NCBI GenBank assembly: GCA_035629175.1 | Contig: DASPIL010000060.1 | Span: 1-64,000 of the forward strand | From: Verrucomicrobiia bacterium | GTDB lineage: Bacteria; Verrucomicrobiota; Verrucomicrobiia; Limisphaerales; DASXHY01 | Length of the DNA: 64,000 nt | Reading direction: 5' to 3' | Shown here: piece by piece, positions 15,401-39,026 of the stretch | Numbering within the stretch: the first letter of the stretch is position 1 | Layout: every line of letters starts with the position of its first letter | Position numbers and translations under genes: made by a program | Notes under the pieces: model-generated | Told to the model about the DNA's origin: nothing | The model's database searches: none | Seen by the model: only the letters and a program-made list of their open reading frames with translations

Positions 15401-15524
15401 TCTTTCTGAATCGATCAAGGGTGATCCCGCCTCACTTCGTTTTACGATCGGTGATGCGAAGTTGAAACCGTTCTTTGAAACCTACGATCGGCATTCCGTT
15501 TACTTCGACGTGACGCTCCAGTAG
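12489..15524 (+). CDS. Secreted LamG plus GH127-like beta-L-arabinofuranosidase
   Basis: A 1011-residue exported glycosidase. The signal peptide ends near PAHAQ (24). A LamG/concanavalin-like lectin domain spans about 35-245 (ARYLFNGS...VRIYSIAL..QQ). A linker and a beta domain ending at about 352 precede the DUF1680/GH127 alpha/alpha-barrel (about 365-1000). GH127 enzymes cleave terminal beta-L-arabinofuranose using a zinc-bound cysteine nucleophile. Here Glu740 and Cys742 (QNETCATYN) plus Cys810-Cys811 (GYTCCNGTAIES) match the Glu338/Cys340/Cys417/Cys418 set of Bifidobacterium HypBA1, which makes Cys810 the likely nucleophile. The ATG at 12489 begins the signal peptide. Substrate is probably arabinan, arabinogalactan or hydroxyproline-linked arabinose; related specificities within DUF1680 cannot be excluded. 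Confidence 0.87.
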   Translation: MKKILLVVSSLVLIHAHRPPAHAQGDGDQFLDGIGETALVARYLFNGSPQDLSRNSHHATLNGATNAFTDDPRFGRVLSLNGTSHVNLPGDLLDDHESLSVTGWLFLRSADPWQRFFDFGQDTTHYFFCTPVGAGPDDGFRARITSEGWESEQGPAAPRLSTNQWIHIAVTLDAAQKRLNTYVNGRRVAQSSNVNLNMAQVLSETGSENHLYIGRSQFDSDPHLDARLHDVRIYSIALTDQQVATIYSNKLSGASGSTSASISGSSTSGAKAFMAGITSVSDVTAETTVGHLPKLPFTVPAADANQTTGLMVRVIWPSPSNNVQVLQPGSYSITGIVAGTAFKPVAKVTVKRGSAAPAPARVLETFPLNRVTLERDEQQRETQFMKNRNKFMQGLAESNPDRYLYMFRDAFGQPQPDGAQALRGWDSQTTRLRGHATGHYLTAIAQACASSGYDPALQSNFVRKMNYLIDTLHDLSSRSGMPTNAGAAAVADPTAVPFGPGNTNYNSDLSTNGIRTDYWNWGKGFISAYPPDQFIMLEQGATYGTRNTQIWAPYYTLHKILAGLLDCYEVGGNEKALQIARNMGLWVHARLSQLPAATRISMWNRYIAGEYGGMNEVMARLNRLTNDARFLEGARLFDNINFFFGDSNFTHGLAFNVDTIRGKHANQHIPQITGALETYRGSNDPKYYRVAENFWDITRHSYMYSIGGVAGAKNPNNAECFTAHPDTLFANGFANGGQNETCATYNLLKLSRYLFQFDPEARYMDYYEQALYNHILASVAENNSGNTYHVPLNPGARKQFGNGNMSGYTCCNGTAIESSTKLQDSIYFRSANNDALYVNLYVPSTLTWSERSVTVRQRTDFPYEDSVRIVVNGEGAFDLRLRVPMWAAKGFHVKINGEQQSISGTPGTYLSLQRTWKSNDTVEIRMPFGFRLERLMDQPNIASVFFGPVLLAAEEPDARTTWQPVTLNGSDLSESIKGDPASLRFTIGDAKLKPFFETYDRHSVYFDVTLQ

Positions 15525-21822: not shown

Positions 21823-23025
21823 TCAAACGCGCAGGAAAAGCTGGCGGCGATACATCCAAAAGAGCACCAGCCATAACACGAGCAGAACAAGGCTCCCGCG
21901 CAGGAGAGGTTCGTATGCGCTGCCGATCACTCCAAACACCTGCGGACCGAAATGCGTGACGAGCGTCGAGACAATGAAGCCGGGGAAGAGGTGAGCTATG
22001 ACATACGCCGCAATTGAATTCATTCCAATCACGACGAGAACAAACGCCCAGCGGCGAAATCCCCGAACATCAATGACATAATACAGCGCCGCGAGAATCA
22101 GCAGGCACCAACCCCCGCTGAAGAGCGTCCAGCTCGGCGTCCAGATGCGCTTGACCACGGGGCAAATGCCCGTCGCACCGAGCAAGATTCCCAGCAGCAG
22201 GGTTGCGGCGCCCGTGACAAGCAGCCATCGGATTTTATCCCCGGATGCCCGCGCACCACGCAGAACCGCACCTGCAAGCAACCCGAAAATCATTGTTCCC
22301 AAGGTTGGAATGAAGCTGAGCGTTGCGTAACCGCCCGCATTGGCGATAAAAGGTTGTTCCCTGGGAAAAAGGTTCAGGAACCATGTGTCGAACGCCCACG
22401 CGAGGTTTGTGTTTTTTGCCCAATGGGCAGAGAAGCCAGAAATAGGCCTGCCTGCGTCCTCCTGTGGCACGGGATACAAGGCGAAGGCCAGCCAATAGGC
22501 GATTAGAACAAACGCCAGTGAGCTCCATTGCACGCGGCGCGATTGGAACCCCAGCAAATACAGCAGCGGATAGCCAAGGCCGATTTGCGTCAGGGTGTCT
22601 TCAAAGGTCCAATTCGTTTGCGGCTGGCCAACCGACCTCAGGAGGATTCCCAGAAAGACGAGCATCACCGCCCGCCAGCAGGCATGTGCCGTTCGCTGCC
22701 ATTGCGGCTGGCCGATGTGTGAGCGGCGGGCAAGCGAGAAAGGAAGCGCGACTCCTACCAAAAAGGTGAATGAAGGCTGGATCAAATCGTGCAATGAACA
22801 TCCGATCCATTCGACGTGCGATTGGTGATAACAGAGGATCCGCCAAAACGCATTGCCAGGAACATTTGTCGAAACGCTGCAGAACTCCAGAACCTCAGCC
22901 ATCATCAGCAACATCACGGCTCCGCGATAGGCATCCAATGACCCAACACGAACTGCGGCCAAAGCTGGAGTTCCCGCTGCGGCAAGGCTGCCCTGTTTCG
23001 GTGCAAGCGGGACGACGGAAGACAT
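21823..23025 (-). CDS. HGSNAT/DUF5009-type membrane acyltransferase
   Basis: A 400-residue polytopic membrane protein with about ten predicted helices. Family segments include [17 protein letters not shown] (about 27-43), [25 protein letters not shown] (about 73-97) and the terminal [10 protein letters not shown]. This is the family of heparan-alpha-glucosaminide N-acetyltransferase and bacterial DUF5009 proteins. The human enzyme transfers acetyl from acetyl-CoA across the membrane to terminal glucosamine. The His in SLHDLIQP is a candidate catalytic residue. It is the last gene of the ten-gene operon, 22 nt after the DUF4832 gene. Re-acetylating de-N-acetylated amino sugars at the membrane would suit the locus; this is inference. 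Confidence 0.78.
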
Positions 23026-23047: not shown

Positions 23048-25546
23048 CTATTGGAGCGTCAGTTTCAAGCGAAGAAATCCAGTCGCTTCGGGACTGGTGT
23101 AGCTGGCTCTCAGTGACGTGGGCGCGTTTTCGAGGACGGTGACCGCGTCTGCCGACCACGCCGGCGGTTGCAGCACAGGCGAACTCTGCACCTCGTATTG
23201 GACATCCTTCACGCCCGGTCCTTTGAATACCGAAAGGATCAACGTCGCGTTGGTATAACTGAAGTTCAAGTAAGCGGTGTTTTCGGCAACGGTGGGATTC
23301 AATCCGACTGCGTATTCCAAAAGGTTCACGCGTCCGTCAAGATCCGGGTCTGCCTCAGGCAAGCCATTGACGGGGTTCGAAGGGAAATGCCGCGCGTTCC
23401 AGCGCTCGTAGGTTTCCGCAATCGAAGAGAACTCGAGCACCGGCACTTCTGATCCGGCGGGTGCCGCGTTGGTAGCGCTGTGATTGATGATGATTGTATG
23501 GTGCAGCCGATGATAGCCGGTTGCAGGTTCCCATACCGAACCCAGCACTGCGCCTGCGCTGGACAACGCGTTCGAGTTCGCCAGCCGAATCGCATAGGGA
23601 ACCGAGTCATACAATGACGGCGCGGGGTCTGGCAGGTTCAACAGCAGCTCGTATTCGCCCGTGGGAATATCCGATGGCAATGCCAATTCCGCATGTATCA
23701 CGTGGTTGCTCCCGGGAAGCCATCGGCGCGGGTCGGCGTTGCGAGACAGTGCGGCAAAATATTTCTGATCGCCTTGCGCGTTGCGCAGGATCAACTCGAG
23801 ACCGCGAGGATTGTAGGGCGCCGCGAATCCGATGTTGCGAAGTGTCAGGGTCAAAGGCATCACCTGCCCTGGTTGCGCCTCGTTGCGAAATATTCCCGAA
23901 ATTAATTCGATGCGATAACCCAGGCGCCGCTTGATGTCATCGATACAACCGTGCTGCACCCACTTGTTGTTCACATTGGCATTGTAGCCCTGGTGCAAAT
24001 ACGAGTAGTGAAACAACGCCATGTCGGGATCGGCGTTTCCGCCAGCGGATTCACAATCGTCGGTCGGCGGGTTCAGCATGCAGGTTTCGCCACCGACAGG
24101 CGTGTAGCGCGAATCCTGGGCGGTGTAGTTGCGAAGGTTGATGACATCCTGCCCCGAAGTTCCACTGCCGACATCATAATCGGCAAACGTGCCGGCGTCG
24201 GTTGAATCGGCGAGGAAGCAATCGTTGTGAAATCCGATGCGCGAAGCGTCGCTGCCGCTGAAAGCCTGGAGAGCGGTCAATCCAGCGGCTCCCGTGATCG
24301 CGGTGGGGCCATGCACAAACTTCTGCTTCATTTGCGGCGTGCGAGCCTGCACGGCGCGTTCGACTGGCACCGCCGCCAGCAGCGCCCCAAGCACCTCGGA
24401 ACGGTCCCTCCAGTTTTGCGCGGTAGCCTGGCCATTCGTGTAGAAGACGTCGGTGAAATAACCTTCGCCCCACGCCGCAATGAATCCCTGCTGCACCACG
24501 GCAATGACGTCGCTGTTCTTCTTCAACACGGGCGCCAGTTGCGCGATGTGCTCGAGAATTCGTGCCTTGCTCGGTTCGTTGAACGGGCGTGTTTGATCCT
24601 GGTTGTAGGCGAAGCGGACGATTGCCTTCACGCCCTGCGCACGGATGGAATTGAAGTCCGCCTGAATCAACGCCAGGTAGTTCGAGCTGATTGGCGCGTT
24701 CACAAAGGTGTCGAGATAGAATAACCGCAGGAGCAGCGTGATCTTTGCGTTGTAGGTGTTGCCCGGCGAATTCCTGCCGTTGATGCGATACGACGCAAGG
24801 TTGGACGGAACCGAACTGGGCGAGCTCGCGTGATTTTCGGCCTGAATGTAAAAACCCCGTTCCGGATTCGCGATGTCCTCATTCGATGCGGAGTAGGTGT
24901 TCGTCGTAAAACCTTCTGCAAAGGTGACGTTCGTGACCGCGGCAAACGTGTAAGCCAGGCCTCCTGCAGTGGACGGCGCCCATTCGGCGCTGACGAATCC
25001 CGCTGTTTCGGATTCGAGAACGATCGCGATGGCGGGATGTGTGAACACGGGCGCACCGCCGGAAGCGTACGAGGCGTGGCGCGAAATGCGTGCTTCGAAC
25101 TCGGTGCCCGGTTCACCGGGCGCTGCAGCCCAGTTCAGACCGTGGATCGCACCTTCGTTAAAACCCCCATTTTTCTGCTGATACCCTCCGCCCGCTTGAA
25201 CGAGCAACTCGGATCCAACCAGGCCATTGGCGCTGAATCCCGTCGCCGGATTCTGATCGGCATCGACAAAGAGGTTCTGCAACGGAGTGAACGGATTCGC
25301 GGGTTCCCGAATGGTGAACTTCAGGTAGAGGTAATCGTCGTCGTTCGCGAGATGAATGGTTTCGTAATCGACCGCATTGGTAACACTCAGCATCTGGCTG
25401 TGCGCCAGCGGCACCCCTGCCCAATCGTCGAATGCTCCATCGATGGTGATGTGTTTGAATGTCCCCGCGTGAGCGGCGAGAGCGTGAATGCATGCGCACA
25501 CGGCGAGACGCCGGCAGAGGCGGGAAAGAGAATGGGATGCGTTCAT
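23048..25546 (-). CDS. Secreted CBM9-like + DUF4874 + DUF4832 protein, candidate glycosidase
   Basis: An 832-residue exported protein. I chose the ATG at 25546 because it begins a signal peptide (1-27, AAHAG). The frame extends upstream to 25849 but only as an overlap of the epimerase gene. AAGGAAG about 12 nt before 25546 supports this. A CBM9-like module spans 28-210 ([20 protein letters not shown]), the same module found twice in the 35114 protein. DUF4874 spans about 217-395 and DUF4832 about 405-640. The pair reads as a TIM-barrel-like unit. Glu361 in AAWGEGYF and Glu487 in VGGETC are spaced like clan GH-A acid/base and nucleophile. The C-terminal tail ends [11 protein letters not shown]. 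Activity is unproven. Confidence 0.78.
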
Positions 25547-25574: not shown

Positions 25575-26492
25575 CTACTTGCGGTGGCGAAAAAAATGGA
25601 CGGTGGCATCGAGGCCCTCCTGAAAGTTGCCTGAGGGCTTGAACCCCGCGTCGCGAAGTTTGTCGACCGCGGCGAGCGAATGCCTGACATCACCAGCACG
25701 CTCCGGCGTGTACTCCAGTTTCGAATGGGAGCCCGACACGCGGCAGATCGTCGCGGCGAGCTCGTTGATGGTGATGCGTTCGCCGTAACCGACATTGAAC
25801 ACGCCCGTCGCCTGCGACTCCGTTCCAAAAAAGGCATTGGCCGCAGCAACGTCCTTCACATAGACAAAATCCCGCGTCTGCCCGCCATCGCCGTGAATGG
25901 TGATCGGCTCATTCTTTACAGCGCGATCTATGAAGATCGGGACCGCTGCCGCGTATTGGCTTTTTGGATCCTGCCTGGGGCCAAACACATTGAAATAGCG
26001 CAGGCACGCCGTGGCGAGCCGGCCTTCAGCCGTGAACATGCGGCAATAGAATTCACCATCGAGCTTCGTTATTGCGTAAGGGCTCTTCGGCTCCGGCAGC
26101 ATCGTTTCCAGTTTCGGCGTGACCGGATTGTCGCCGTAGATCGCCGCCGAACTGCTGAGCACCAGCTTCCTGACCTTCGCCCGCTCGGCCTCCTCCAGGA
26201 CAATCACCGTTCCAGTCGTGTTGATTTCATTGCACTCGATCGGCTTGTGCATTGATTCCGGGACGCTGACCATCGCCGCCAGGTGGAAAACAAAATCCAC
26301 CTGCTGCATGGCAGCGCGCACCGCGTTGCGATCGCAGATCGAGCCTTCGATGAACTCGTGATCCAATCCCGCAAGATTGTGCCGGTTGCCGGATCGAAGG
26401 TTGTCGAGCACGCGAACCTCCGCCCTGCGCTGAAAATGCTCGACGATATGGCTGCCGATAAAGCCCGAGCCGCCAGTGACGAGAACTCTCAT
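25575..26492 (-). CDS. NAD-dependent UDP-sugar 4-epimerase
   Basis: A 305-residue extended short-chain dehydrogenase. The NAD-binding glycine motif is TGGSGFIGS (6-14). The catalytic tyrosine and lysine are Tyr139 and Lys143 (SPYAITK), with a serine in VLSSSAAIYG (about 113-115). Sequence features (SPYAITKLDGEFYC, FGPRQDPKSQYAAAVPIF) place it near UDP-GlcNAc/GalNAc and UDP-glucose 4-epimerases such as GalE and WbpP. Its start codon overlaps the kinase stop as ATGA. Next to an N-acetylhexosamine 1-kinase and a nucleotidyltransferase, interconversion of UDP-GalNAc and UDP-GlcNAc is the likeliest reaction. A decarboxylase or dehydratase of the same fold cannot be excluded. Confidence 0.88.
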   Translation of the reverse strand: MRVLVTGGSGFIGSHIVEHFQRRAEVRVLDNLRSGNRHNLAGLDHEFIEGSICDRNAVRAAMQQVDFVFHLAAMVSVPESMHKPIECNEINTTGTVIVLEEAERAKVRKLVLSSSAAIYGDNPVTPKLETMLPEPKSPYAITKLDGEFYCRMFTAEGRLATACLRYFNVFGPRQDPKSQYAAAVPIFIDRAVKNEPITIHGDGGQTRDFVYVKDVAAANAFFGTESQATGVFNVGYGERITINELAATICRVSGSHSKLEYTPERAGDVRHSLAAVDKLRDAGFKPSGNFQEGLDATVHFFRHRK

Positions 26493-27577
26493 TGCAGGTG
26501 CTCCACGAGTTGGTTCATCTGCTCCTCCTGCTGCTCGATGGATTCGACCAGCTTGAACTGGGTTCGGCAGCGATCCAGGTTGTGTCCATTGCGATGCACT
26601 TTGAAATAGGTGTCGCCTGCAAGATAATCCGTCAGAAAGCGGATGCCGATTTCAAACGTGATCAACCGTCCTGAAAACGCAAGCAGCCGCTTTTCGTCGG
26701 CGGTCAGAAAATCCCCTGCGGATTCGAGGTATCCTCGGATGAGGGCTTCATACATCGGAAACTGCATGGTGACGCGCGACAGATCCAGCTCGTCTTCCTT
26801 CGCGGGGCTGGTTGTGGTTCGGACCATGTCGCCAAAGTCATACAACGCCAGGCCGGGCATGAGCGTGTCGAGATCAACAACGCAAATCCCTTCGCCAGTT
26901 TCTTCGTCGAGCATCACGTTGTTGAACTTGGTGTCATTGTGCGTCACGCGCTCGGGCAGCCCTGCATTGATCAGGCCGCCAACGATGCCAGCCCTGTTCA
27001 ACGCGAATTCAATTTCCGCCGCTGCGGATGCGGCGCGGTTCGCAGCATCGTTTTCAATGGCCGCCTGAAGCGCTTTGAATCGCTTGGGTGTGTGATGGAA
27101 ATCCGGGATGGTGTTGTTCAATGGCGGCGCGGGCAGATCAGCCAGCAGCTTTTGAAACTGCCCGTACGCCTTTGCAGCTTCATAAGCCTGACTTGGGGAA
27201 TTCACGGCATCGTAGGAACGCGCGTTCTCGATGAAGAGATACGCACGCCAGAAATTCCCATGTTCATCCTGATTGAAAACGCGGCCGTCACGCGCGGGAA
27301 TCAGCGTCAGCACACGACGGCTGCTATCGGGCGCGCCCGCAAGCTTCGCCGCAAGATGCGCCGTCACCCGCTGGATGTTTTCCATCACCGCGGGTGGGTT
27401 GCTGAAGATGCGATGATTGATGCGTTGAACGATGTAGCGGGTCGGATTGCCAGCCACATTGAAAACGACGCAATAGGTGTCGTTGATATGGCCGCTCCCG
27501 TAGGCTTCCGCGGACCGGAATTCGCCGAAAATCTGGAACGCCGCTGTCACGGCCCGAATGTCGTGGTTCGCAGTCAC
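26489..27577 (-). CDS. nahK: N-acetylhexosamine 1-kinase-like phosphotransferase (NahK type)
   Basis: A 362-residue APH-fold kinase, close to the 359 residues of Bifidobacterium longum NahK, which phosphorylates GlcNAc and GalNAc at C1 using ATP. The catalytic loop THNDTKFNNVML gives Asp215 and Asn219. The metal-binding motif VVDLDTLMPGL gives Asp235. Both are characteristic of this subfamily. The GTG at 27577 is chosen because it overlaps the upstream stop as GTGA; the frame to 27673 lies inside the preceding gene. Databases often label homologues as mucin desulfatases, a historical misnomer. It is coupled to the nucleotidyltransferase before it and the epimerase after it. Substrate specificity within N-acetylhexosamines is inferred. 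Confidence 0.82.
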   Translation of the reverse strand: MTANHDIRAVTAAFQIFGEFRSAEAYGSGHINDTYCVVFNVAGNPTRYIVQRINHRIFSNPPAVMENIQRVTAHLAAKLAGAPDSSRRVLTLIPARDGRVFNQDEHGNFWRAYLFIENARSYDAVNSPSQAYEAAKAYGQFQKLLADLPAPPLNNTIPDFHHTPKRFKALQAAIENDAANRAASAAAEIEFALNRAGIVGGLINAGLPERVTHNDTKFNNVMLDEETGEGICVVDLDTLMPGLALYDFGDMVRTTTSPAKEDELDLSRVTMQFPMYEALIRGYLESAGDFLTADEKRLLAFSGRLITFEIGIRFLTDYLAGDTYFKVHRNGHNLDRCRTQFKLVESIEQQEEQMNQLVEHLQ

Positions 27578-28467
27578 TGCCAAAGCCTTTCCGGATAGTG
27601 GCCGTCCCGGACCAGTTGCCGGATTCCCTGTTCGACGTGCGGGCGATCCTCGCGATAGGTGACGCCAAACCATTGGGCATTGGTCCGGAGGACTTTCACG
27701 CGTTTGCGTCCGTTCTGGACAAGGCTGTTGATCAGGCCGGGAATGTAGAATTCCGATTTTTGTTCGTGCCCGTGCTCTTCAAGGAACTTCTGGAAGTGCT
27801 CGCGCAATTCGCAAAACAAATCGGACTGGAATCCCCACATGTTCATCGAAACCAGTTCGTCACCCGTGAGCACCTGCGCGCCGCCCGAGGCATCGCGATA
27901 CCGGGCGCGATTTCCATCCTTCTCAATGCCGACCACCTCCCGGACATCCTGAAGCTCGCCGCCAGCCGATTGGCAGACTCCGCGTGCAACACTGCCAAAT
28001 TCCGACAACGTGTTCCGCAGAACAAATGCAACCATGGCGTAATCGGGATTGGACGGATTCAAATGATCGGCGAGCAGGCGGAACGATTCCGTCCCGTAAA
28101 AGTCATCGGCGTTGATCACTCCAAAAGGCCCCCTGATGACGTCGGCGCCCATCAGAATGGCGTGTCCCGTTCCCCAGGGCTTTTGCCGGCCCTCGGGGAC
28201 AGTGAAGCCGGGTGGAAGGGAGGTCAGCTCCTGGTAAACGTAATCGACCGAAATAAACGGTTCAAAGCGGCTTCCGATCCTTTCCCGAAACGCCGCTTCG
28301 ATGTCCCGGCGGATCACAAAAACGAGATGGTCAAACCCGGCGCGGATCGCGTCGTGCACCGAGTAATCGATGATCGTTTCACCCGAAGGCCCGACTGGAT
28401 CAATCTGTTTGAGGCCGCCGTAGCGGCTGCCCATTCCAGCGGCCAGCACCAGTAATGTCTTATGCAT
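27574..28467 (-). CDS. Sugar-1-phosphate nucleotidyltransferase
   Basis: A 297-residue NTP transferase from the ATG at 28467. The signature LVLAAGMGSRYGGLKQ (about 5-20) binds the nucleotide, and VINADDFYG (around residue 110) supplies the metal-binding Asp. Members couple a sugar 1-phosphate to UTP, dTTP or another NTP with release of pyrophosphate. The ATG overlaps the previous gene's stop by 8 nt and its own stop overlaps the kinase start, so all three should be translated together. Following the kinase product, UDP-GalNAc or UDP-GlcNAc is the expected output. The nucleotide is not decided by the sequence. Confidence 0.82.
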   Translation of the reverse strand: MHKTLLVLAAGMGSRYGGLKQIDPVGPSGETIIDYSVHDAIRAGFDHLVFVIRRDIEAAFRERIGSRFEPFISVDYVYQELTSLPPGFTVPEGRQKPWGTGHAILMGADVIRGPFGVINADDFYGTESFRLLADHLNPSNPDYAMVAFVLRNTLSEFGSVARGVCQSAGGELQDVREVVGIEKDGNRARYRDASGGAQVLTGDELVSMNMWGFQSDLFCELREHFQKFLEEHGHEQKSEFYIPGLINSLVQNGRKRVKVLRTNAQWFGVTYREDRPHVEQGIRQLVRDGHYPERLWQ

Positions 28468-29176
28468 CAATTTGAAAACGGAGAGCGGGCTCAAACGCGA
28501 GAAATCCCCATTCGCGCTGCCGATGAAAATCAGGGTGCAGATGCGGCGATGTGCACGAGATCACGGGTTGGGGAATACCGCGCGTGTAATCGTAACGCGC
28601 AAATGAAAATCGCCAGCGGGCAAGTTCGAGCGATGCGTCGTGGCCGCTCACAATGCGCGAAGGCACTTCGGCATACACCTGCCAGCCATTGCCCGAAACC
28701 CAGGTTTGGGAATGAAAGGCCGCGTCCCGCAAGAGGACCGGCGTGAGGTCGCGAGTCCGCCGCGCGTTCTCGATCGCGGCAACATCGGGATAACGCAACT
28801 GGAGGCGATGATTGTTCGGCGTCACATGAAGCTCGACATAGCTCTCGTGCGCATCCGCCCCCAGAAACATCTCAAAAACATCGCCGATCTCCCAAGTGCG
28901 CTGGTTCAGCTGCGTTGCATTGCTGAAGACATCTTCATCCTGCAACTCAGCGAACAGGTGAAGGGACGTGTTGCGCCATCCCAGTTGAACGTATGCAGGC
29001 GCAAACCGGGGTTCCTCCCTGGCAAGCCACGCCTGGCGCAATCCGCAACGCGGCGCCGTGGCAAAGGCGCGGCGGACTTCCGAAAGCTGCGATGCATCGA
29101 ACGGCGGAATTTCCGGGCAGTGTATTTTAGGGAGTGGTTCCGCTGCAGGTTCATTGACAGGTCTGACAGTTTGCAT
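28460..29176 (-). CDS. CBM9-like carbohydrate-binding protein, apparently cytoplasmic
   Basis: A 238-residue protein from the ATG at 29176, preceded at 5 nt by AGGAG (complement of 29182-29186), the clearest ribosome site in the locus. A frame to 29200 would overlap nagB. The fold looks like carbohydrate-binding family 9 / DOMON-related proteins: LHLFAELQDEDVFSNATQ, WEIGDVFEMFLG, SYVELHVTPNN and WQVYAEVPSRIV. Single-domain cytoplasmic homologues occur beside sugar catabolic genes, but their function is unknown. No signal peptide or membrane segment is seen. Its 3' end overlaps the nucleotidyltransferase start. Confidence 0.75.
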   Translation of the reverse strand: MQTVRPVNEPAAEPLPKIHCPEIPPFDASQLSEVRRAFATAPRCGLRQAWLAREEPRFAPAYVQLGWRNTSLHLFAELQDEDVFSNATQLNQRTWEIGDVFEMFLGADAHESYVELHVTPNNHRLQLRYPDVAAIENARRTRDLTPVLLRDAAFHSQTWVSGNGWQVYAEVPSRIVSGHDASLELARWRFSFARYDYTRGIPQPVISCTSPHLHPDFHRQREWGFLAFEPALRFQIDA

Positions 29177-29184
29177 GCGTGCTC

Positions 29185-29955
29185 CTAAACCTGCTGCCAC
29201 TCCGGCTTGTTTTCATAAACCCAGCGATAATATTCCGCCCGCTTGAGTTTTCCTGCGGCCGCTGAATCCACGCACAACTTCGCATTCACGTGCATCTGGA
29301 GAATGGACGCGGGATTCAGCGCTGTCAGCGGGCCTTCGACCGCGGCGGCGACGGCCCTCGCCTTCCTTGCGCCAAACGCCAGCAGGAGGCATTGACGCGC
29401 CTCCATGATTGTTCCCAGCCCCATGGTGATTACGTGTTGTGGAACATTCTCCGCCCCATCGAAATACTTCGCGTTGTCCCGGCGGGTTCCACGCGTAAGC
29501 GTTTTGATCCGCGTGCGTGAAGCCAGCGACGAGGTGGGTTCGTTGAACCCGATGTGGCCATCCGTGCCAATCCCGAGCACCTGAAGGTCAATGCCTCCCG
29601 CCTTCGCAATCTTCCGTTCATAATCGGCACAAAACAGCGGAATGTCCGCAGCCTGGCCGTCCGGGATGTGCACGTTCCTGCGGGAAATATTCACGTGCTG
29701 AAACAAGTTTTCCCACATGAAACTGTGATAGGACTGGGAATGATCGGGAGCCAATCCGACATATTCGTCGAGGTTGAACGTCGTCACCCTGCGCCAGTCG
29801 AGCTTCATTTCGGCGAGGGCGCGATAGAGCAGCAATGGCGTGCTTCCTGTCGCCAAACCCAAAACGGCGTTGGGTTTCGAACGAATGCAGCGCGCAACGA
29901 TCCGCGCAGCCACTTCGGTGGCGGCGGCCGCATCGCGTTGAATGATGATTTCCAT
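29185..29955 (-). CDS. nagB: Glucosamine-6-phosphate deaminase
   Basis: A 256-residue NagB converting glucosamine 6-phosphate to fructose 6-phosphate plus ammonia. Active-site motifs are LDEYVGL (Asp63, Glu64) and GIGTDGHIGFNEP (Asp132, His134, Glu139). All are shifted by nine from E. coli Asp72, Asp141, His143 and Glu148, so the catalytic set is complete. SRTRIKTLT and the NPASILQMH segment are also typical. Its ATG is 6 nt after the PIG-L deacetylase stop. No nagA is present. In Bacteroidota some NagB proteins are, as I recall, fused to a PIG-L domain, which suggests the neighbour makes its substrate. It provides the step into glycolysis. Confidence 0.92.
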   Translation of the reverse strand: MEIIIQRDAAAATEVAARIVARCIRSKPNAVLGLATGSTPLLLYRALAEMKLDWRRVTTFNLDEYVGLAPDHSQSYHSFMWENLFQHVNISRRNVHIPDGQAADIPLFCADYERKIAKAGGIDLQVLGIGTDGHIGFNEPTSSLASRTRIKTLTRGTRRDNAKYFDGAENVPQHVITMGLGTIMEARQCLLLAFGARKARAVAAAVEGPLTALNPASILQMHVNAKLCVDSAAAGKLKRAEYYRWVYENKPEWQQV

Positions 29956-29961
29956 TTTTCT

Positions 29962-30819
29962 TCAGCCGCGGCCGAGCCGCCGATTCAAATTTTCCCGGAC
30001 ACCGGACTCGAACCTTTGGATGAATTTGCAGGCATATTCCGTGATATCGAGCGTCGTGTCCTGCACCAGCGGCGTGAGATCCATTCCGAAAATCACCTGC
30101 GATGCGCAGTCGGTGGCGTGCGGCTGATGGAAGGTCGCGTTTGCGGCGCGCCGCCCCATGGCAGCCAGGTCGTAACGCTTACCGCCTGCGATCTGTGAAT
30201 GGAAGACCGCGTTCAACTCAGCAGCAAGGGCGTCATGTCCGCTGACGTCCATCACCACTTTGCTTTCGTCGGGAAGCCAGTCCAGATTCCGCCACACTTC
30301 GCAGCCCCAGACTCGTCGCGGCCGCTCGGATGCGGGAAGTTCGCGAAGGGCTTGAATCGCTGCGACCGCAACACCGATGTGCGTGTCATGCTTGTCCGCC
30401 AGGTTGTGGGTGTAAACAACTTCGGGAGTCGTCGCGGCGAGAATGGTTTTCAGATCCTCGCGCAATCGATCGTCGTTCGGACTTTTCACCACGCTGCTGG
30501 AATGCCCCAATTGAATCATCACGCCGTAACGTCCCTTTTCAGCAGCCGCGTTCTGTTCCCGTATCCTGGCCTCCATCATCTGCTCATCGGTGAAGGCGGC
30601 GAAAGGACCCGTTCGCGCGCTGCCAGAGCCATTCGTGCATGTGACACCGCCAAACCATTTGTCGTTCTCCGCGAAGCACTCCGTGATTCCATGAAACGCC
30701 ATGAACTCGAGATCGTCCTGGTGAGCGCCAATCCCGAGGTGAGTGATGCGCCTCAACGCATCGTGCAGCGGGCATTTGTCGGGCACGAACACGCCCGCGT
30801 TCGACTGGTGCAACTTCAT
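29962..30819 (-). CDS. PIG-L family N-acetylglucosaminyl deacetylase
   Basis: A 285-residue LmbE/PIG-L hydrolase, zinc-dependent N-deacetylase fold. The metal motif is GAHQDDLEF, a variant of AHPDDE with Gln for Pro, and the distal motif NLADKHDTHIG supplies the histidine ligand. The ATG at 30819 is 2 nt past the stop of the GH109-like gene; a frame from 30873 would overlap it. Residues after VVYTHN match PIG-L enzymes acting on small GlcNAc compounds. Located directly upstream of nagB in a locus without nagA, it is a candidate to deacetylate GlcNAc, GlcNAc-6-P or GalNAc derivatives. No signal peptide is seen, so it should act in the cytoplasm. Confidence 0.85.
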   Translation of the reverse strand: MKLHQSNAGVFVPDKCPLHDALRRITHLGIGAHQDDLEFMAFHGITECFAENDKWFGGVTCTNGSGSARTGPFAAFTDEQMMEARIREQNAAAEKGRYGVMIQLGHSSSVVKSPNDDRLREDLKTILAATTPEVVYTHNLADKHDTHIGVAVAAIQALRELPASERPRRVWGCEVWRNLDWLPDESKVVMDVSGHDALAAELNAVFHSQIAGGKRYDLAAMGRRAANATFHQPHATDCASQVIFGMDLTPLVQDTTLDITEYACKFIQRFESGVRENLNRRLGRG

Positions 30820-30821
30820 AG

Positions 30822-32258
30822 TCAAGTCGTCTGCGTCATCCGCGCTATGCCAAGCGGCTGCATCGTCCGCCATAGGCCTCGCGTGAAATCAGGGATGCTG
30901 ACCGGCGCGCTCCCGGAGGCGACCGAGCGCGTCGATATTTCCATGATACTGCTCCAAGCCGCAGCATCGTAGACAACGCTGTCGGGCGTGACCCCGCGTC
31001 GAAGGGTGTCCATCACGCGCCAGTTCATTACGAAATCCATTCCGCCATGACCGCCGCCGCGCGCACGCTCCTCCAGTTGCTTCCACAGCGGATGCGTGAA
31101 TTTGTCGCGCATGAGTTTCAGGTCGGCATCGTTGAGCCAATCATGGGATCCCCGCGCGCCCAGCCCATGAATCCCTGGGTCGTTGATCGACAGCCGCGCC
31201 GGGTAGTCGAAGAACGCGCCGCCGCTGCCGCACATCGCGTTGATCCGGTTGTACGGCCGCGGCGTGACAACATCATGCTGCACCATGATCGTGCGGCCGA
31301 GTTCCGTCTTGATGAGCGACGTGTTCATGTCGCCGCAGATATATTTTTCGCCCGCGTGCCTGCCGTTGTTGGGCTGGCGTTCGTCGCGGTATTTTGTCAG
31401 CGACACCTCGGGCGAACTCATTGACACGAGAAACTTGAATTGATCCCCGCGCCCGATTCCCAGCGTCTGGGCAACGGGACCAAGGCCGTGCGTTGGGTAC
31501 AGGTTTCCATCCTGCCGCGAGTGATACGCTCGGCGCCATTCGCCTTCGCCGTTCAAGTCGAAGAGAACGGTGCGAAGATCGTGGATGTAGGCGCACTCCG
31601 CGTGATTCAATTCCCCCAGGACGCCTTCCCGCGCGAGGTTCAGGACAAACAGTTCATTCTCTCCGTAGCAGCAATTCTCCAGCATGATGCAATGGCGCTG
31701 AGTCCGCTCGCTGGTGTCCACCAGCGTCCAGCATTCCGCCACGCTTTCCGCAGCCGAGACCTCGAGCAATGCATGCTTCCCCTGCTCCATCGCACGCACA
31801 GCCATCGGCACATGCCACTTCCAGGGTGTCGCAATGTAAACAGCGTCGATGTCATCGCGGTCGACCATTTTCTCCCAGATTTCTTCGGTCCCGCTGTAAA
31901 CCTCGGGACGCTTGCGGCGCTTCTTCTCACACGCATCTGCCCCGGCCTTCGCCCGATCGTCGCGCCAATCGCACACAGCCACTACCTCGACGAAATCCAT
32001 GTTCAGACAATCGTTGAGATGTGTCATGCCGCGATGAAGGCCGATGACTCCGACCCGCACGCGTTCCAGTGGCGGCGTGGTGAGATCATGAACAGGCTTG
32101 TTTCCGGCGGGCCTGCGCGGTGAGGCCGGAGATTTGCCCGATGCCATGACATCCTGGCCAGGTGTCGAACATCCCGACAATCCCGTCATGGAAGCGCCCA
32201 ACCCCGCGAGGGTTGAAGCCTTGAGAAAATGGCGCCGTGAAAAGTTGGAGTCGTTCAT
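30822..32258 (-). CDS. GH109-like alpha-N-acetylgalactosaminidase, Tat-exported lipoprotein
   Basis: A 478-residue Gfo/Idh/MocA-fold protein. The N-terminus has a twin-arginine motif SRRHFLK (Arg8-Arg9) and a lipobox LSGC (Cys30). The Rossmann motif is VGVIGLHRG (about 69-77). Segments STPWEWH-like ATPWKWHVPMAV, ENCCYGENELFVLN, YIHDLR, GNLYPTHGLGPV (His257), GDMNTSLIKT, RTIMVQHDVVTPRPY and GGHGGMDFVM follow glycoside hydrolase family 109 closely. That family cleaves alpha-GalNAc by an NAD-dependent redox mechanism and occurs in Akkermansia and Elizabethkingia. Here it would release GalNAc in the periplasm for the porter encoded 12 nt upstream. Other oxidoreductases share the fold, so activity needs proof. 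Confidence 0.85.
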   Translation of the reverse strand: MNDSNFSRRHFLKASTLAGLGASMTGLSGCSTPGQDVMASGKSPASPRRPAGNKPVHDLTTPPLERVRVGVIGLHRGMTHLNDCLNMDFVEVVAVCDWRDDRAKAGADACEKKRRKRPEVYSGTEEIWEKMVDRDDIDAVYIATPWKWHVPMAVRAMEQGKHALLEVSAAESVAECWTLVDTSERTQRHCIMLENCCYGENELFVLNLAREGVLGELNHAECAYIHDLRTVLFDLNGEGEWRRAYHSRQDGNLYPTHGLGPVAQTLGIGRGDQFKFLVSMSSPEVSLTKYRDERQPNNGRHAGEKYICGDMNTSLIKTELGRTIMVQHDVVTPRPYNRINAMCGSGGAFFDYPARLSINDPGIHGLGARGSHDWLNDADLKLMRDKFTHPLWKQLEERARGGGHGGMDFVMNWRVMDTLRRGVTPDSVVYDAAAWSSIMEISTRSVASGSAPVSIPDFTRGLWRTMQPLGIARMTQTT

Positions 32259-32270
32259 ACAGGAATGCTT

Positions 32271-34040
32271 TCAGCGTTTGCCCTGAAAATGTTCTTCAAT
32301 TTCTTCAAGCGTCTTCCCCTTCGTTTCCGGCAGAAAGAACGCGGCGGTGATGAAATAAACCACCGTGCACCCTGCGAAGAGGAAAAACAGCGTGGAGTAG
32401 CCATACCGCCCGACCGTCGGCAAAAAGGTCGCGGCGATGATTGTGGAAACCGCCTGGTTGATCAGGAGCGCGATGCTCATGCCATTCGAGCGAATCCGGG
32501 TTGGCATCAATTCCGACAACGCCAGCCAGACGCAAACGCCTGGACCGATTGCGAAGAATGCCATGAAGACAAAGAGAAACCCAGCCACGAGCCATCCGCT
32601 TTGTTCGGTGGGGACTGGCGTGATCAGGGCGTTCTCAATTCGGAGCGGCGCGGTTTGCGCTGCTTCGACGTCGGCGAAAGGATTCGAGAAGAACGCCACC
32701 ACGCGGTTGTTCGGCACGCAGTTCTCGCGCCTGATTTCGATTGGCTTCGCCAGCGCGTCGTCGGAACGCACAACACTCGTCGCGGCACGGAAATCACCAT
32801 AGGAATAAATGACGATCAGTGAGGCTGGCGTTTTAACGGCCTTCTCCCCTCCAATGCGCGAGAGCAATTCCTGATCGAACGCCAGGGTGAGCGTCTGTTG
32901 GGTCGAGACCTGCGACTGCACAATGTCGCGGGCATCGACACGCTGCTTCTCCGTGCGGTGAAACATCATGCCTGCGCAAATCAGCGACACAATGATTCCC
33001 GCGCTGCCCAGAGACAGGAGAAATTTTCTGCCTTTGCGATCGACAAGGATGACGCCAACGATCGTCAGCAGAAAATTGACAGTGGTGAGAATGACATAAC
33101 CGAGGTGTGCCTGGCGGTCGTCAAGGCCCGCCTGCAGGAGAATCGTGGCATTGTAGCCAATGATTGAATTGACGCCCGTGGCCTGGTTGCAGGCGAGGAT
33201 CACGCACGCGAGCACGAATGGAATCACGTATTTCCGGCGCAACAATGACTCGCGAATACGTTCGCCCGTGGTTGATGTGCTGGCCCGTTCGGATGCAATC
33301 GCTTCCTCCATTTCACGGAGTTCGACGTCGACCTGGGCAGCGGAGCGCGATCGCGACAACGCTGCGCGAGCGGCGTCAAGCCGGCCGCGCCGATAAAGCC
33401 AGCGCGGAGATTCAGCAACCATCAGGCTGCCCGCGACAAATAAAATCCCGGGGGGCAGCGAAACCCAGAAGATGCTGCGCCACGCTTTGTCCTTGAACGC
33501 GAAAAGCCTGTCCGGATCCCCGAGCTTCGCGACTTCTTCAACCTGGTGGCTGTAGTAAAAACCGATGATTGCCGCCGCGACAATGCCCAGCGTCAGCAGC
33601 CACTGGAAGATCCCCGTTCCCTTGCCCCGGTTGGCTGCGCCAAGGCATTCAGCGAGATACAACGGAATGACCACGCCGATCAGGCCCGCGCTGATTCCCT
33701 GCAACAATCGTCCAAACACAAGCGGGCCATATCCATCGGCGAGCGCGATCATTGGGATGCTGATGACGAACAGAATGCCGCTCGCAGCCATCACCTTCTT
33801 GCGCCCGAGAAGGTCGGCGAGCGCGCCCGCGAACAAGGTGGAAATCACGCTGCCCAGCAGCACCGCGGCAACGATGAACGACAACTGTCCCGCGCTGAGC
33901 CCCGAAGTTGCCTCCAGGTAAGGCAGCGCGCCTGAGATGATTCCAACATCGACGCCGTAGAGAAGCCCGCCGAGCCCGGCAACGAGCAGGAGGAAGCGAT
34001 TGTAACCCTTCTTGTCGTCGGCGCTGGGGTGATCAGTCAT
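32271..34040 (-). CDS. MFS sugar porter with large extracytoplasmic insertion
   Basis: A 589-residue proton-coupled transporter of the sugar porter family, read from the ATG at 34040. Signatures include GGLLYGVDVGIISGAL in helix 1, GALADLLGRKK between helices 2 and 3, SPRWLYRRGR after helix 6, NQATGVNSIIGY in helix 7, DRKGRK between helices 8 and 9, and PETKGKTLEEIEEHF after helix 12. About 120 residues (roughly 361-480) are inserted between helices 9 and 10, where the family has a short outside loop. Typical members have about 450-480 residues. It is the first gene of the ten-gene operon, so it should import the sugar released by the GH109-like enzyme. Confidence 0.88.
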   Translation of the reverse strand: MTDHPSADDKKGYNRFLLLVAGLGGLLYGVDVGIISGALPYLEATSGLSAGQLSFIVAAVLLGSVISTLFAGALADLLGRKKVMAASGILFVISIPMIALADGYGPLVFGRLLQGISAGLIGVVIPLYLAECLGAANRGKGTGIFQWLLTLGIVAAAIIGFYYSHQVEEVAKLGDPDRLFAFKDKAWRSIFWVSLPPGILFVAGSLMVAESPRWLYRRGRLDAARAALSRSRSAAQVDVELREMEEAIASERASTSTTGERIRESLLRRKYVIPFVLACVILACNQATGVNSIIGYNATILLQAGLDDRQAHLGYVILTTVNFLLTIVGVILVDRKGRKFLLSLGSAGIIVSLICAGMMFHRTEKQRVDARDIVQSQVSTQQTLTLAFDQELLSRIGGEKAVKTPASLIVIYSYGDFRAATSVVRSDDALAKPIEIRRENCVPNNRVVAFFSNPFADVEAAQTAPLRIENALITPVPTEQSGWLVAGFLFVFMAFFAIGPGVCVWLALSELMPTRIRSNGMSIALLINQAVSTIIAATFLPTVGRYGYSTLFFLFAGCTVVYFITAAFFLPETKGKTLEEIEEHFQGKR

Positions 34041-34221
34041 CGGATTGTTTTGATTCAATGTGCGGCAAGCCTGTGGCCGAATTCAACCCTTGGAAATAAG
34101 CCGCGGTTGGGATTGCGCTGCCCGAGTGGGCCTGATGGCTCGGAGATTGGATGGACGCCCGAAAGCGATGCAGATCCGGAATCGCAGGCACGACAACTTC
34201 AGAATCCATTTCAGCAGAACG

Positions 34222-35113: not shown

Positions 35114-37783
35114 TCATTGCGCCAGCCGGAAGAATCGCACGGCGTCGGATGCAGGGACGATCAGCGGGTTCGTCGCGGCCGGGACATTCGTCCATGACCC
35201 CGAGTTGAGTGAAGAGGCTGACTGTAGAGCGCCATTGGATTCCCAAATGACGGCGGTGTTGCCACCGGGAACCCGCGCAATCGCGAGCCCGCCCAGCGGC
35301 AGGGCCGGAACCGTCACCGGCGCGCCGTCCACATATGTCAGAACTCCGCCATCCCACGGCGCCATGTTCACTGCGACGAATCCGGGCGTCATTCCCTGGA
35401 ACAGGAACGTGATGGTGTTCGTCGGGAACACAGGCGTTCCGTCGGAAGCAAAGGTCGCGTCCTTCGAGAAGCGGAATTCAAAGTCCGTTCCAGGCGCTGC
35501 AGGAAGGCTCAGCCAGTTGAGTCCATTGATGGCGCCCTCATTGAACCCGCCATTCTTCTGCTGATAGCTGAATCCGCTCTGGATGAGGAGCTCGGAGCCG
35601 ATCGCCGAATAACCGGTATTCGGATCCGCATCGGTGTTGAAAAACATGTTCACGTAGGCCGGGAACTGGCCCGCCGATGCAGGAATGTCATGCCAGAGAG
35701 TGACTCGGAAGTAATAGAAATCCGCGTCGTCAAACATGTAGATTTCCTTGAAGTCGGCCGCGCCGTCCATTCCTTCGGGCCCGCTGTAGATCGGCGTGAC
35801 GCCTTCCCAGTCGCCAAAGCTGCCATCGATCGTGATGCCGCGCGTGAAGGACGCCATCGTGTTCACAGTATTTCCAAAGCGATCCTCCACCCCGTTCACC
35901 GTCACGGAATAGAGTGTCCCGAGAGTCAAGGGGGCGCTTGTGGTCAGGATCACCTGCGTCGCATCGCCTGGGTTGACGACGGCGCTGGAAACTCCCGCTC
36001 CGCCGCTCAGCGTGTAAAAGGCGGCGTTGGCGGCCGTCGCTGCATCCAGCGGTTCCGCAAACGTAATCACCACCTGGCTGGCGGCCGCGGCGATGTCCGT
36101 GATGGAAGGTGCCAGCGTGTCCGCGAGCACTGTGAGAAGTGCAGTCCTGCTGTTCGTTGCGCCAGCGGGGTTGCTGACAACGACATGATAATTTCCCGCG
36201 TTCGTCAGGTTTGCAGAAGCGATGACAAACGTGGCGTTCGTCTCACCCGCCAGGGCGGTTGCGCCGCGATACCATTGATACTGCACGAGCGCAGAACCCG
36301 ATGCGGCAACGCCGAACGTGGCGGTTCGCCCTTCCAGGACCACGGCGTCAGCGGGCAGTCCGGGATTCGTAAACACAACTGGCGTGCTCGTCACTGTGAG
36401 CGTCGCCGCGCGCGTTGTATTGGTCGAAATGGCATTCTCAATTCGCAGTGAATAAGTTCCCGCATCGTTGGTAAGCACCATCGGAATGGTGAATATCGCA
36501 TTCGTGGCACCATTGATCGGATTGCCGTTTCTGAGCCATTGATATGCCAACGGGCCGCTTGCCAGGATGTCCGCACTGAATGTCACGGGCTGGCCGCCCA
36601 CCACGGTCTGGTTTGCGGGCCGATTCGTATCGACGATGATGATGGGGTACGAAACAGAAGCTGTCAGCGACATCCCAAAGACCATGTCTGCCGCGCTGCC
36701 CGCAGCCTGATGCACTTCGACCTCGAGAATGTTATCGCCAATGATGAGCGGCCCGCCCGAGAACCCCGTGATCTGCGGGCTGCCGGCCGGGTTATTTGTT
36801 CCCGTGGCCGCGGTGGCGTGGGTGATGTTCCCCGCTGGCATGCGAACACGGCGGACTTCGGTGCCGTTGAGATAATACACAGCCCCGTCGCTCAGGTAAT
36901 TCGTCACCACAAACGCGACATTCGCGGTCTCGTGGTTCCAGTTGAAATGCGTGCGAAAATAATAGGTGTTCGCGCCAGCCGGGAGCGGCGTCTGGATGGC
37001 TGGGTAACTGCCCGGGCTTGGAGTAAAACCGAACAACCCCATGCCCGCGGTCCACGGCGCCTGCGAATCATCGTATGCCTGTTCCAGCCAGTTGGTGCCC
37101 AGGTCGGTGCCGGACGCATTCACCTGCCATGAGGTTCCGCCCAGAGTGACCAGCGCAAGGTTTTCGGTGAGAACCGATGGCGGAGCCTCAAACGTGTAGG
37201 GCAGCCCACCCGCAACTTTCGGCGCCCATTCAACATTCACAAAGCTGGCATTATCGGATTCCAGCACGAACGCGATGGTTTCTGCCGCGAACACAGGAAC
37301 GCCGTCCGTGACGTAGGTGGCGTTGCGCGAGATGCGCACTTCAAATTCGCTGCCAGGCGCGGCTGGGGCGGCCTGCCAGTCCAGGCCGGCGATCCCTCCC
37401 TCGTTAAACGCGCCGTTCTTTTCCTGGTACCCTGCGCCGCCCTGAATGAGCATTTCGGATCCCACATAGCCGCCCGCGTTGAAACCGGTGCCGGGATTGT
37501 TGTCGGAATCGACGAAAATGTTTTGAAGGAACGTGAACGGGTCACCCGAACCGTAAATAGTGAAACGGATGTAGAGATAATTCTCGTCGTTGGCGACGTA
37601 GATATCCTTGTAGGCGATCGTCTCAGTGTTGCCCTGCTCCTGCGTGTGCGCGAGCGGCACGCCGGCCCAGTCTCCGAATGAACCGTCGATGGTGATGTGT
37701 TTGAACGTGCCGGCAGCCGCGCCGCCAGTTCCGCAGAGCGTGGCCAGCAGGATCGCCAGCGTTTTGCATCCAGTCATTTTCAT
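35114..37783 (-). CDS. Secreted protein with two CBM9-like modules and Ig domains
   Basis: About 889 residues from the ATG at 37783 (37789 is equally possible). The frame continues to 37906 without coding character. Signal peptide 1-25 (GGAAAG). The first CBM9-like module (about 26-205) opens with [21 protein letters not shown] jelly-roll-like region follows (about 205-385), then two Ig-like domains (about 385-555, QWLRNGNPINGATN and QWYRGATALAGETN) and a BIG5-like domain (about 555-645). A second CBM9-like module lies at about 645-830. The C-terminal tail ends VRFFRLAQ. No catalytic motif is visible; binding of the target glycan at the cell surface is the likely role. It stands between the lacI-type gene and the pseudopilin and has a good promoter. 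Confidence 0.75.
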   Translation of the reverse strand: MKMTGCKTLAILLATLCGTGGAAAGTFKHITIDGSFGDWAGVPLAHTQEQGNTETIAYKDIYVANDENYLYIRFTIYGSGDPFTFLQNIFVDSDNNPGTGFNAGGYVGSEMLIQGGAGYQEKNGAFNEGGIAGLDWQAAPAAPGSEFEVRISRNATYVTDGVPVFAAETIAFVLESDNASFVNVEWAPKVAGGLPYTFEAPPSVLTENLALVTLGGTSWQVNASGTDLGTNWLEQAYDDSQAPWTAGMGLFGFTPSPGSYPAIQTPLPAGANTYYFRTHFNWNHETANVAFVVTNYLSDGAVYYLNGTEVRRVRMPAGNITHATAATGTNNPAGSPQITGFSGGPLIIGDNILEVEVHQAAGSAADMVFGMSLTASVSYPIIIVDTNRPANQTVVGGQPVTFSADILASGPLAYQWLRNGNPINGATNAIFTIPMVLTNDAGTYSLRIENAISTNTTRAATLTVTSTPVVFTNPGLPADAVVLEGRTATFGVAASGSALVQYQWYRGATALAGETNATFVIASANLTNAGNYHVVVSNPAGATNSRTALLTVLADTLAPSITDIAAAASQVVITFAEPLDAATAANAAFYTLSGGAGVSSAVVNPGDATQVILTTSAPLTLGTLYSVTVNGVEDRFGNTVNTMASFTRGITIDGSFGDWEGVTPIYSGPEGMDGAADFKEIYMFDDADFYYFRVTLWHDIPASAGQFPAYVNMFFNTDADPNTGYSAIGSELLIQSGFSYQQKNGGFNEGAINGLNWLSLPAAPGTDFEFRFSKDATFASDGTPVFPTNTITFLFQGMTPGFVAVNMAPWDGGVLTYVDGAPVTVPALPLGGLAIARVPGGNTAVIWESNGALQSASSLNSGSWTNVPAATNPLIVPASDAVRFFRLAQ

Positions 37784-37919
37784 AGGCATGGGTTTGGGGT
37801 CTGTTTGAGGTTGCCTCCGGCACGATCCCGAAAGGGAAAAACCACACACGTCCCGGCAGGAAGGAATTCCAGCAAAGAGCCCGTGCGAGTTTTGGATGGC
37901 AAGCATTGGACTGGTGCGA

Positions 37920-38012: not shown

Positions 38013-39026
38013 TCAGGACTGCGCCACGACGGAAAGTGCGCTCGCGCGCAACGAGGATTCCCGAATCACCAGCTTCGGTTTCAGCACGGTTTTCTGCGGC
38101 TTGAGGGCGGTTGCCGAATCCATTCGTTCCATCAGGAACTGCCACCCCGTGGCGCACATCGCCGCCACCGGTTGAACAAGGGTGGTCAGCGGCGTCTCCA
38201 GGTATTCCGTGTCCTGGATGCCGTCGCATCCCACGAGCGCCACCTGGCCAGGAACGCGCACGCCCATGTCGCAGAGCCCGCGATAGATTCCCAGCGCGAC
38301 GTCATCGGAATGGCAAAAGATCGCGTCCGGTCTCCCATTGTCCCGCACGTAATCCTGAATCAACTGACGAACGATGGGCCGTTGTTGTTCCGTGAGCGGG
38401 TAATAAATGAACTCAGGTTTCAAACCGGCCTTCTGCATGGCTTTGACATAGCCGGCGCGCCTCGATGCAGCGGGTGCATTTCCGCGCACGAATGTCGCGT
38501 GCGCAATGCGGCGGTATCCGGAACTGAGGAGATGCTCCATCACCTCAAGGGTGCCCGCCAGCAGATCCACCTGGACGGCGTCTGCGCTGGGGATGCAGTT
38601 CACGCCCATGCTGATGATCGGCACGCGCGATCCCGAGGGGGACTTGCGATAAATGTCCGCCTGATCGGGCGCGTCCACGACGATAATGCCATCCATCGGC
38701 ACGTGCGAGAGCATCTGCTGATCCTTCGCGATGCTGACTTCGCTCACGATCAATTCGTGCCGCGCCGCTTTGACCAGGCGGTTCAATTCACGGGAGACGT
38801 GTGTGTAATGCGTTGAGATCTGGTCGGGAATCCAGAGGCCGATGATTCCGCTGCGGCCCTTCTTGAGCGCGCGCGCGTAGGGATTCGGCCGATAACCCAT
38901 TTCCCGCGCGGCAGCCAGGATTCGTTCGCGCGATTCCTGCGAAATCTGAGGGTACCCCGAGAGAGCGAAGGTGACTAACTGACGCGATACACCAAGTTTT
39001 CGCGCGATCTGTGCCTGGGTAACCAT
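38013..39026 (-). CDS. LacI family transcriptional regulator
   Basis: A 337-residue regulator. The helix-turn-helix lies at about 3-25 (TQAQIARKLGVSRQLVTFALSG), followed by the hinge (ILAAAREMGYRPNPYARAL, about 36-54) and a periplasmic-binding-protein-like effector domain (about 62-335). LacI proteins repress or activate sugar genes and release DNA on binding a sugar. It is the first of thirteen co-directional genes of the amino-sugar locus, 229 nt before the CBM9/Ig gene. Control of the promoter at 37920-37948 is the simplest hypothesis. The effector is unknown; N-acetylhexosamines or their phosphates would fit. Confidence 0.9.
   Translation of the reverse strand: MVTQAQIARKLGVSRQLVTFALSGYPQISQESRERILAAAREMGYRPNPYARALKKGRSGIIGLWIPDQISTHYTHVSRELNRLVKAARHELIVSEVSIAKDQQMLSHVPMDGIIVVDAPDQADIYRKSPSGSRVPIISMGVNCIPSADAVQVDLLAGTLEVMEHLLSSGYRRIAHATFVRGNAPAASRRAGYVKAMQKAGLKPEFIYYPLTEQQRPIVRQLIQDYVRDNGRPDAIFCHSDDVALGIYRGLCDMGVRVPGQVALVGCDGIQDTEYLETPLTTLVQPVAAMCATGWQFLMERMDSATALKPQKTVLKPKLVIRESSLRASALSVVAQS

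Follow-up and report, generated by a model that had tools for sequence, protein, structure and literature searches.

A Probable Secreted Glycosidase with DUF4874 and DUF4832 Domains, Encoded in a Hexosamine Operon of a Verrucomicrobiia Bacterium and Proposed To Act on α-Linked GalNAc/Galactosamine Polymers

Results

The window, a 64,000-nucleotide stretch of DNA from a Verrucomicrobiia bacterium, contains ten close-packed genes on the minus strand that run from position 34058 to position 21823. In reading order these encode an MFS transporter, GH109, PIG-L, NagB, a 246-aa protein, a nucleotidyltransferase, an N-acetylhexosamine 1-kinase (NahK), an epimerase, the DUF4874/DUF4832 protein, and a NagX-like protein. 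The coordinates of these genes and of the features within the DUF4874/DUF4832 protein are presented in Table 1. An earlier note, made from the sequence of this stretch, had placed the DUF4832 gene inside a glycan locus, and the hexosamine genes of the operon (GH109, NahK, NagB, PIG-L, and NagX) agree with that description. The GH109 gene of the operon is the only one detected in the 5.4 Mb genome. NagB and PIG-L are encoded by two genes in the window and by a single fused gene in relatives from the Bacteroidota. Neither a glycosyltransferase nor a hydrolase belonging to one of the known galactosaminidase families was seen among the genes of the window operon. NagX is required for the use of glucosamine according to fitness data and was proposed to N-acetylate a periplasmic amino sugar (PMC9007349). 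Judged from its sequence, the window copy, which scores below the equivalog cut-off, may have the same role.

Table 1. Features of the DUF4874/DUF4832 Locus (Positions in the Window)
Feature	Position	Strand	Evidence or remark
NagX-like transmembrane amino-sugar N-acetyltransferase	21823..23025	minus	142 bits, below equivalog cut-off of 480
DUF4874/DUF4832 protein, 832 aa, predicted secreted glycosidase	23048..25546	minus	ORF from ATG, Pfam
C-terminal domain, ~residues 704-832	23048..23437	minus	common to many other large proteins of same order
Modelled core, residues 205-700: (β/α)8 barrel and C-terminal β-sandwich	23447..24934	minus	AlphaFold2
Glu487 codon, end of barrel strand 7 (GGE)	24086..24088	minus	81/81, 33/35
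Asp442 codon, end of barrel strand 6 (HND)	24221..24223	minus	81/81, 33/35
Glu361 codon, loop after barrel strand 4 (GFIAAWGE)	24464..24466	minus	81/81, 35/35
N-terminal CBM9-like module, residues 24-212	24911..25477	minus	structure model matches
GalE-like nucleotide-sugar epimerase	25575..26492	minus	
N-acetylhexosamine 1-kinase (NahK type)	26489..27673	minus	E 7e-78 to 4ocj
Sugar-1-phosphate nucleotidyltransferase	27574..28494	minus	PF00483 E 1.4e-7; adjoins NahK in Rufibacter
246-aa protein without Pfam match	28460..29200	minus	kept beside DUF4832 in genome G022
NagB glucosamine-6-phosphate deaminase	29185..29955	minus	above cut-off
PIG-L deacetylase	29962..30873	minus	fused to NagB in Bacteroidota relatives
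GH109 with Tat signal	30822..32258	minus	6t2b, E 4.5e-118
MFS sugar transporter	32271..34058	minus
Two CBM9-like modules and Ig-like domains, probable glycan-binding protein	35114..37906	minus
LacI-type regulator	38013..39026	minus	kept with locus in G022

The DUF4832 gene is read from position 25546 to position 23048, and the plus strand of the same interval contains stop codons. The start ATG is found 28 bp past the stop codon of the upstream epimerase gene. The reading frame singled out by the earlier note is a real minus-strand gene in which both DUFs were detected. DUF4874 (PF16173) occupies residues 227-406 as a full profile (E 1.6e-39, 135.5 bits against a Pfam cut-off of 30.1) and is followed by DUF4832 (PF16116) at residues 436-657, also as a full profile (E 3.1e-58, 197.5 bits against a cut-off of 29.2). 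The hydrophobic N-terminus, which ends in AHA-G, reads as a putative Sec signal peptide. The C-terminal domain is possibly a cell-surface or sorting domain. Neither the window protein nor the 81-row profile retrieved a relative in sequence searches of the PDB, and a phage search gave no match.

The core of the protein was modelled with AlphaFold2 using the 81-row alignment, and the model has a pLDDT of 94.5 and a pTM of 0.93. A single (β/α)8 barrel spans both DUFs, as anticipated by the earlier note, which had read the two domains as one barrel-like unit. The eight barrel strands comprise residues 27-35, 65-73, 103-109, 144-148, 194-197, 233-240, 280-284, and 312-314 in the numbering of the model. 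A short turn that follows strand 4 contains Glu361 (model residue 157), and the last residues of strand 7 include Glu487 (model residue 283). In the PDB, the core matches glycosidases in fold. GH5_4 (Z 13.8, rmsd 4.0 over 242 residues) is tied with the GH14 β-amylase (Z 13.1, rmsd 4.0 over 236 residues), and Foldseek returned a mannanase (E 1.8e-8) and a β-amylase (E 2.7e-7). GH14 and GH5 are thus fold neighbors of the window protein at Z values of about 13-14, whereas no relation in sequence was detected; Pfam gave no GH14 match to the window protein, and an hhalign comparison with the single usable GH14 sequence was uninformative. Glyco_hydro_114 (PF03537; GH114/GH191) is not among the Pfam matches of the window protein up to an E value of 1, and the galactosaminidases of GH114, GH135, and GH166 are absent among the fold matches listed.

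Enzymes of clan GH-A carry one catalytic glutamate at the C-terminal end of strand 4 and another at that of strand 7, separated by about 5 Å, and an Asn is usually, not universally, found directly before the acid/base Glu. GH5 is a retaining family of clan GH-A, whereas the GH14 β-amylases are inverting enzymes that act on α-1,4 links; in both families, the catalytic acids are near strands 4 and 7. The earlier note had compared Glu361 and Glu487 with the catalytic pair of clan GH-A. Their positions along the chain fit this comparison as topology, but the residue before Glu361 is Gly rather than Asn, and GH5 is tied with GH14 among the fold matches. Since Gly360 directly precedes Glu361 in all rows (81/81 and 35/35), unlike the usual Asn, the protein was not filed in clan GH-A.

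The translation confirmed the positions given by the earlier note for Glu361, within GEGYF, and for Glu487, within GGETC and 126 residues further on. Relatives were sampled from the phylum, from plasmid records, and from 84,980 species genomes, the last of which provided 80 loci. Glu361, Asp442, and Glu487 are all invariant in the alignment of close relatives (81/81), the value for Glu361 being partly by construction because the genome-scan pattern includes the Glu361 motif. There is no exact match to this pattern in 40 of the 81 rows, which must have entered via the second pattern or another stretch. Asp442 is inside the second pattern, and Glu487 is outside both. A divergent set of 35 rows was chosen for diversity and includes members from E. 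coli, Treponema, Actinomyces, Subdoligranulum, and Phocaeicola. In this set Glu361 is found in 35/35 rows and Glu487 and Asp442 each in 33/35, and the next acid is found in 28/35. These residues are the three most conserved acids in both alignments, and the conservation of the two glutamates, on which the proposal of the earlier note depended, therefore holds in close and distant relatives alike. Glu487 and Asp442 are missing together in the same two divergent members, as expected if both acids act together. Those members (L034 1189-2850 and L047 553-2307) retain Glu361 and could, from their sequences, be inactive or altered enzymes. No family member from Streptococcus was found in the plasmid-record searches, which returned other taxa only.

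The model of residues 24-212 has a pLDDT of 72.8 and matches CBM74 (Z 11.1) and the CBM9 structures 7nwn (Z 9.3) and 1i82 (Z 8.9), as judged against a plateau of about Z 7. Pfam, including its CBM9 models, gave no match to these residues; the CBM9-like module described by the earlier note was recovered by the structure model and not by Pfam. The same module is present twice in the window gene at 35114-37906 and is also found in surface PKD lipoproteins encoded at the relatives' loci. From this recurrence, the enzyme and the surface binders probably have one glycan in common.

In neighborhoods extending up to 10 kb from each of the 80 relatives, NahK is found at 19/80 loci (0.3 expected), GH109 at 18/80 (0.4 expected), NagX at 31/80 (0.8 expected), NagB at 11/80, and SusC at 40/80. 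The chance expectations were calculated from whole-genome counts in 20 of these species (approximately 1.1 copies of NahK, 1.7 of GH109, and 3.2 of NagX), and the resulting Poisson values are extreme yet overstated, the loci being related and the GalNAc neighborhood occurring mainly in one broad clade. The GalNAc-type loci span the Hymenobacteraceae, Sphingobacteriaceae, Chitinophagaceae, and others, together with the different phylum of the window itself; the relatives' loci also carry SusC/D and lipoproteins with the CBM9-like module. In G022, another genome of the order to which the window belongs, genes for LacI, the 246-aa protein, DUF4832, NagX, and a protein that bears CBM9 are kept together. 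Some of the relatives' GalNAc loci contain a GH31 with an E value of 4e-200 to a solved GH31 α-galactosidase. The latter is reportedly specific for α-1,4-galactobiose, which would fit galactosaminogalactan. No paper on GH31 and galactobiose in Pedobacter was found in a literature search. A 668-aa family without a Pfam, NCBIfam, or PDB match is encoded in GalNAc loci, at L092 12440-14443 and at six other relatives' loci and may be an undescribed glycan enzyme.

In the phylogenetic tree, a 64-row clade with a support of 100 includes the window protein, which is near its base, and the relative from G022. This clade contains 32 of the 33 GalNAc-locus members and 0 Pel-locus members. The named relatives of the window protein are mostly environmental species.

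The statement of the earlier note that these DUFs have no assigned activity is outdated. A 2025 paper in mBio reports that SIR_1591, a DUF4832 protein that Streptococcus intermedius encodes in a Pel operon, is a glycoside hydrolase that disperses aggregates of the GalNAc-rich Pel polymer with an activity comparable to that of PelA (PMC12345266). The association of DUF4832 with Pel operons had already been noted (PMC7112168). As described there, SIR_1591 shares with the window protein the DUF4832, a TIM barrel with a β-strand domain, and the link to a GalNAc-rich polymer, and its fold was likened to that of β-amylase, as the window protein also matches GH14. SIR_1591 differs in being a membrane-anchored protein of 468 aa encoded within a Pel synthesis operon. 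The paper names DUF4832 only and reports no CBM9-like module, and no mutants of SIR_1591 residues were found in its accessible text (PMC12345266).

In seven loci of the Flavobacterium group, DUF4832 is found beside DUF2194, GH114, a PelG-like protein, and PelF. The PelF match is 134.6 bits against an NCBIfam cut-off of 100, and the PelG-like match is weak (E 0.0047). PelF is part of Pel synthesis, and this link of DUF4832 to PelF is independent of the published SIR_1591 case. Known GH114 enzymes cut α-1,4-galactosaminans, and several of the families GH114, GH135, GH166, and GH191 act on GalNAc/GalN polymers (PMC12054363). The endo-α-1,4-galactosaminidases of GH114 (Ega3), GH135 (Sph3), GH166 (PelA), and GH191 are (β/α)8 barrels like the window protein but use an Asp/Glu pair rather than the Glu/Glu pair proposed here.

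Discussion

The window protein is very likely a glycosidase that uses Glu361 and Glu487. A galactosaminan is on balance the favored substrate, a choice held with little more than even confidence. Taken together, the protein is probably a secreted and endo-acting glycosidase for an α-linked GalNAc/GalN polymer that resembles Pel or galactosaminogalactan. From the computed gene, barrel, residue conservation, operon, and conserved neighborhood, we infer the following pathway. The CBM9-like N-terminal module would dock on the glycan, which would be hydrolyzed by the DUF4874/DUF4832 barrel with Glu361 and Glu487 as the catalytic pair and with the assistance of Asp442. The target would most likely be a Pel- or galactosaminogalactan-like polymer of α-linked GalNAc and galactosamine; chitosan and chondroitin match the gene neighbors less well. 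The exported GH109 would trim the released pieces, NagX would re-acetylate free galactosamine, and the MFS carrier would import the sugar. NahK would then convert it to GalNAc-1-phosphate, which would be channeled into central metabolism by the nucleotidyltransferase, epimerase, PIG-L, and NagB.

The same type of hydrolase could instead be directed at another GalNAc glycan, of host type or otherwise; examples are mucin O-glycans, chondroitin fragments, and structures like those of blood groups. This is considered unlikely. The mucin PUL BT4240-50 of B. theta resembles the GalNAc-type loci in combining a GalNAc kinase, GH109, SusC/D, and a surface lipoprotein for the use of GalNAc, and its kinase also serves chondroitin sulfate (PMC11992087). 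It differs in having an M60 peptidase and a GH2 for mucin, and DUF4832 is not mentioned in that paper (PMC11992087). No M60 mucin peptidase-like gene was found in the relatives' GalNAc-type loci by a crude motif scan. A host glycan is also disfavored by the presence of NagX, which implies an unacetylated amino sugar, by the mostly environmental origin of the named relatives, and by the tie of the family to the PelF loci and to SIR_1591. A retaining enzyme of the GH-A type acting on a β-linked glycan, as the earlier note implied, is improbable. GH5_4 is the best fold match, and one member of the family carries a GH3 fusion next to GH16, but the inverting, α-1,4-acting GH14 ties with it, Gly is found where Asn would be expected, and the neighboring GH109 and GH31 belong to families known mainly for α-linked sugars.

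It is very doubtful that the barrel is dead and the protein serves only to bind a glycan. The two divergent members without Glu487 and Asp442 indicate that inactive forms may exist, but the window protein retains all three acids, and activity is reported for a family member, SIR_1591. Equally remote is a role in the processing of a self-made exopolysaccharide rather than in feeding. In Flavobacterium, and likewise on a plasmid of E. coli, members of the family adjoin synthesis clusters, whereas the genes of the window operon are catabolic and include no visible glycosyltransferase. Because the window protein groups with GalNAc-locus members near the base of a clade that holds no Pel-locus member, feeding on an α-linked GalNAc/GalN polymer is the better reading, short of proof.

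More tentatively, and with somewhat more doubt than confidence, DUF4874/DUF4832 may constitute a new GH family whose active site is Glu-Asp-Glu, and these loci may represent an undescribed utilization system of Verrucomicrobia-like bacteria and the Bacteroidota for cationic α-1,4-galactosaminans (Pel and fungal galactosaminogalactan). Environmental bacteria would thus eat the biofilm polymer of other microbes. A literature search retrieved no publication that describes a utilization locus for galactosaminogalactan, nor a dedicated pathway for the consumption of Pel or galactosaminogalactan. The glycoside hydrolase activity of a DUF4832 protein is already published; the context of the ten-gene operon and the occurrence of the same genes around relatives across the Bacteroidota are new here. 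If the proposal is correct, a mechanism, a substrate class, and three candidate catalytic residues would become available for a widespread unassigned family. Both Pel and galactosaminogalactan serve as polymers of pathogen biofilms, and there is a demand for enzymes able to cleave them as dispersal agents.

The substrate appears to vary within the DUF4832 family, whose members occur in differing contexts, as exemplified by the fusion to GH3. In this protein from Bacteroides finegoldii (L059 5878-9975), DUF4874-DUF4832 is fused to GH3 and encoded beside GH16 and SusC/D, which suggests other substrates within the family. A plasmid of E. coli (IncY typing) carries a DUF4832 gene (L158 6818-8221) that ends a cluster of glycosyltransferase and tyrosine-kinase genes and adjoins galE. 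The genome of the window has a second DUF4832 locus (L157 3665-6088, contig C11), and both loci are near closely related pseudopilin-like proteins (E 1.8e-115), the window copy being found at 34222-35052. Elsewhere in the window, a 1250-aa frame at 8138-11890 has no Pfam or NCBIfam match, and a GH127-type protein with a laminin-G-like domain, weakly similar to aceric acid hydrolase, is encoded at 12489-15524.
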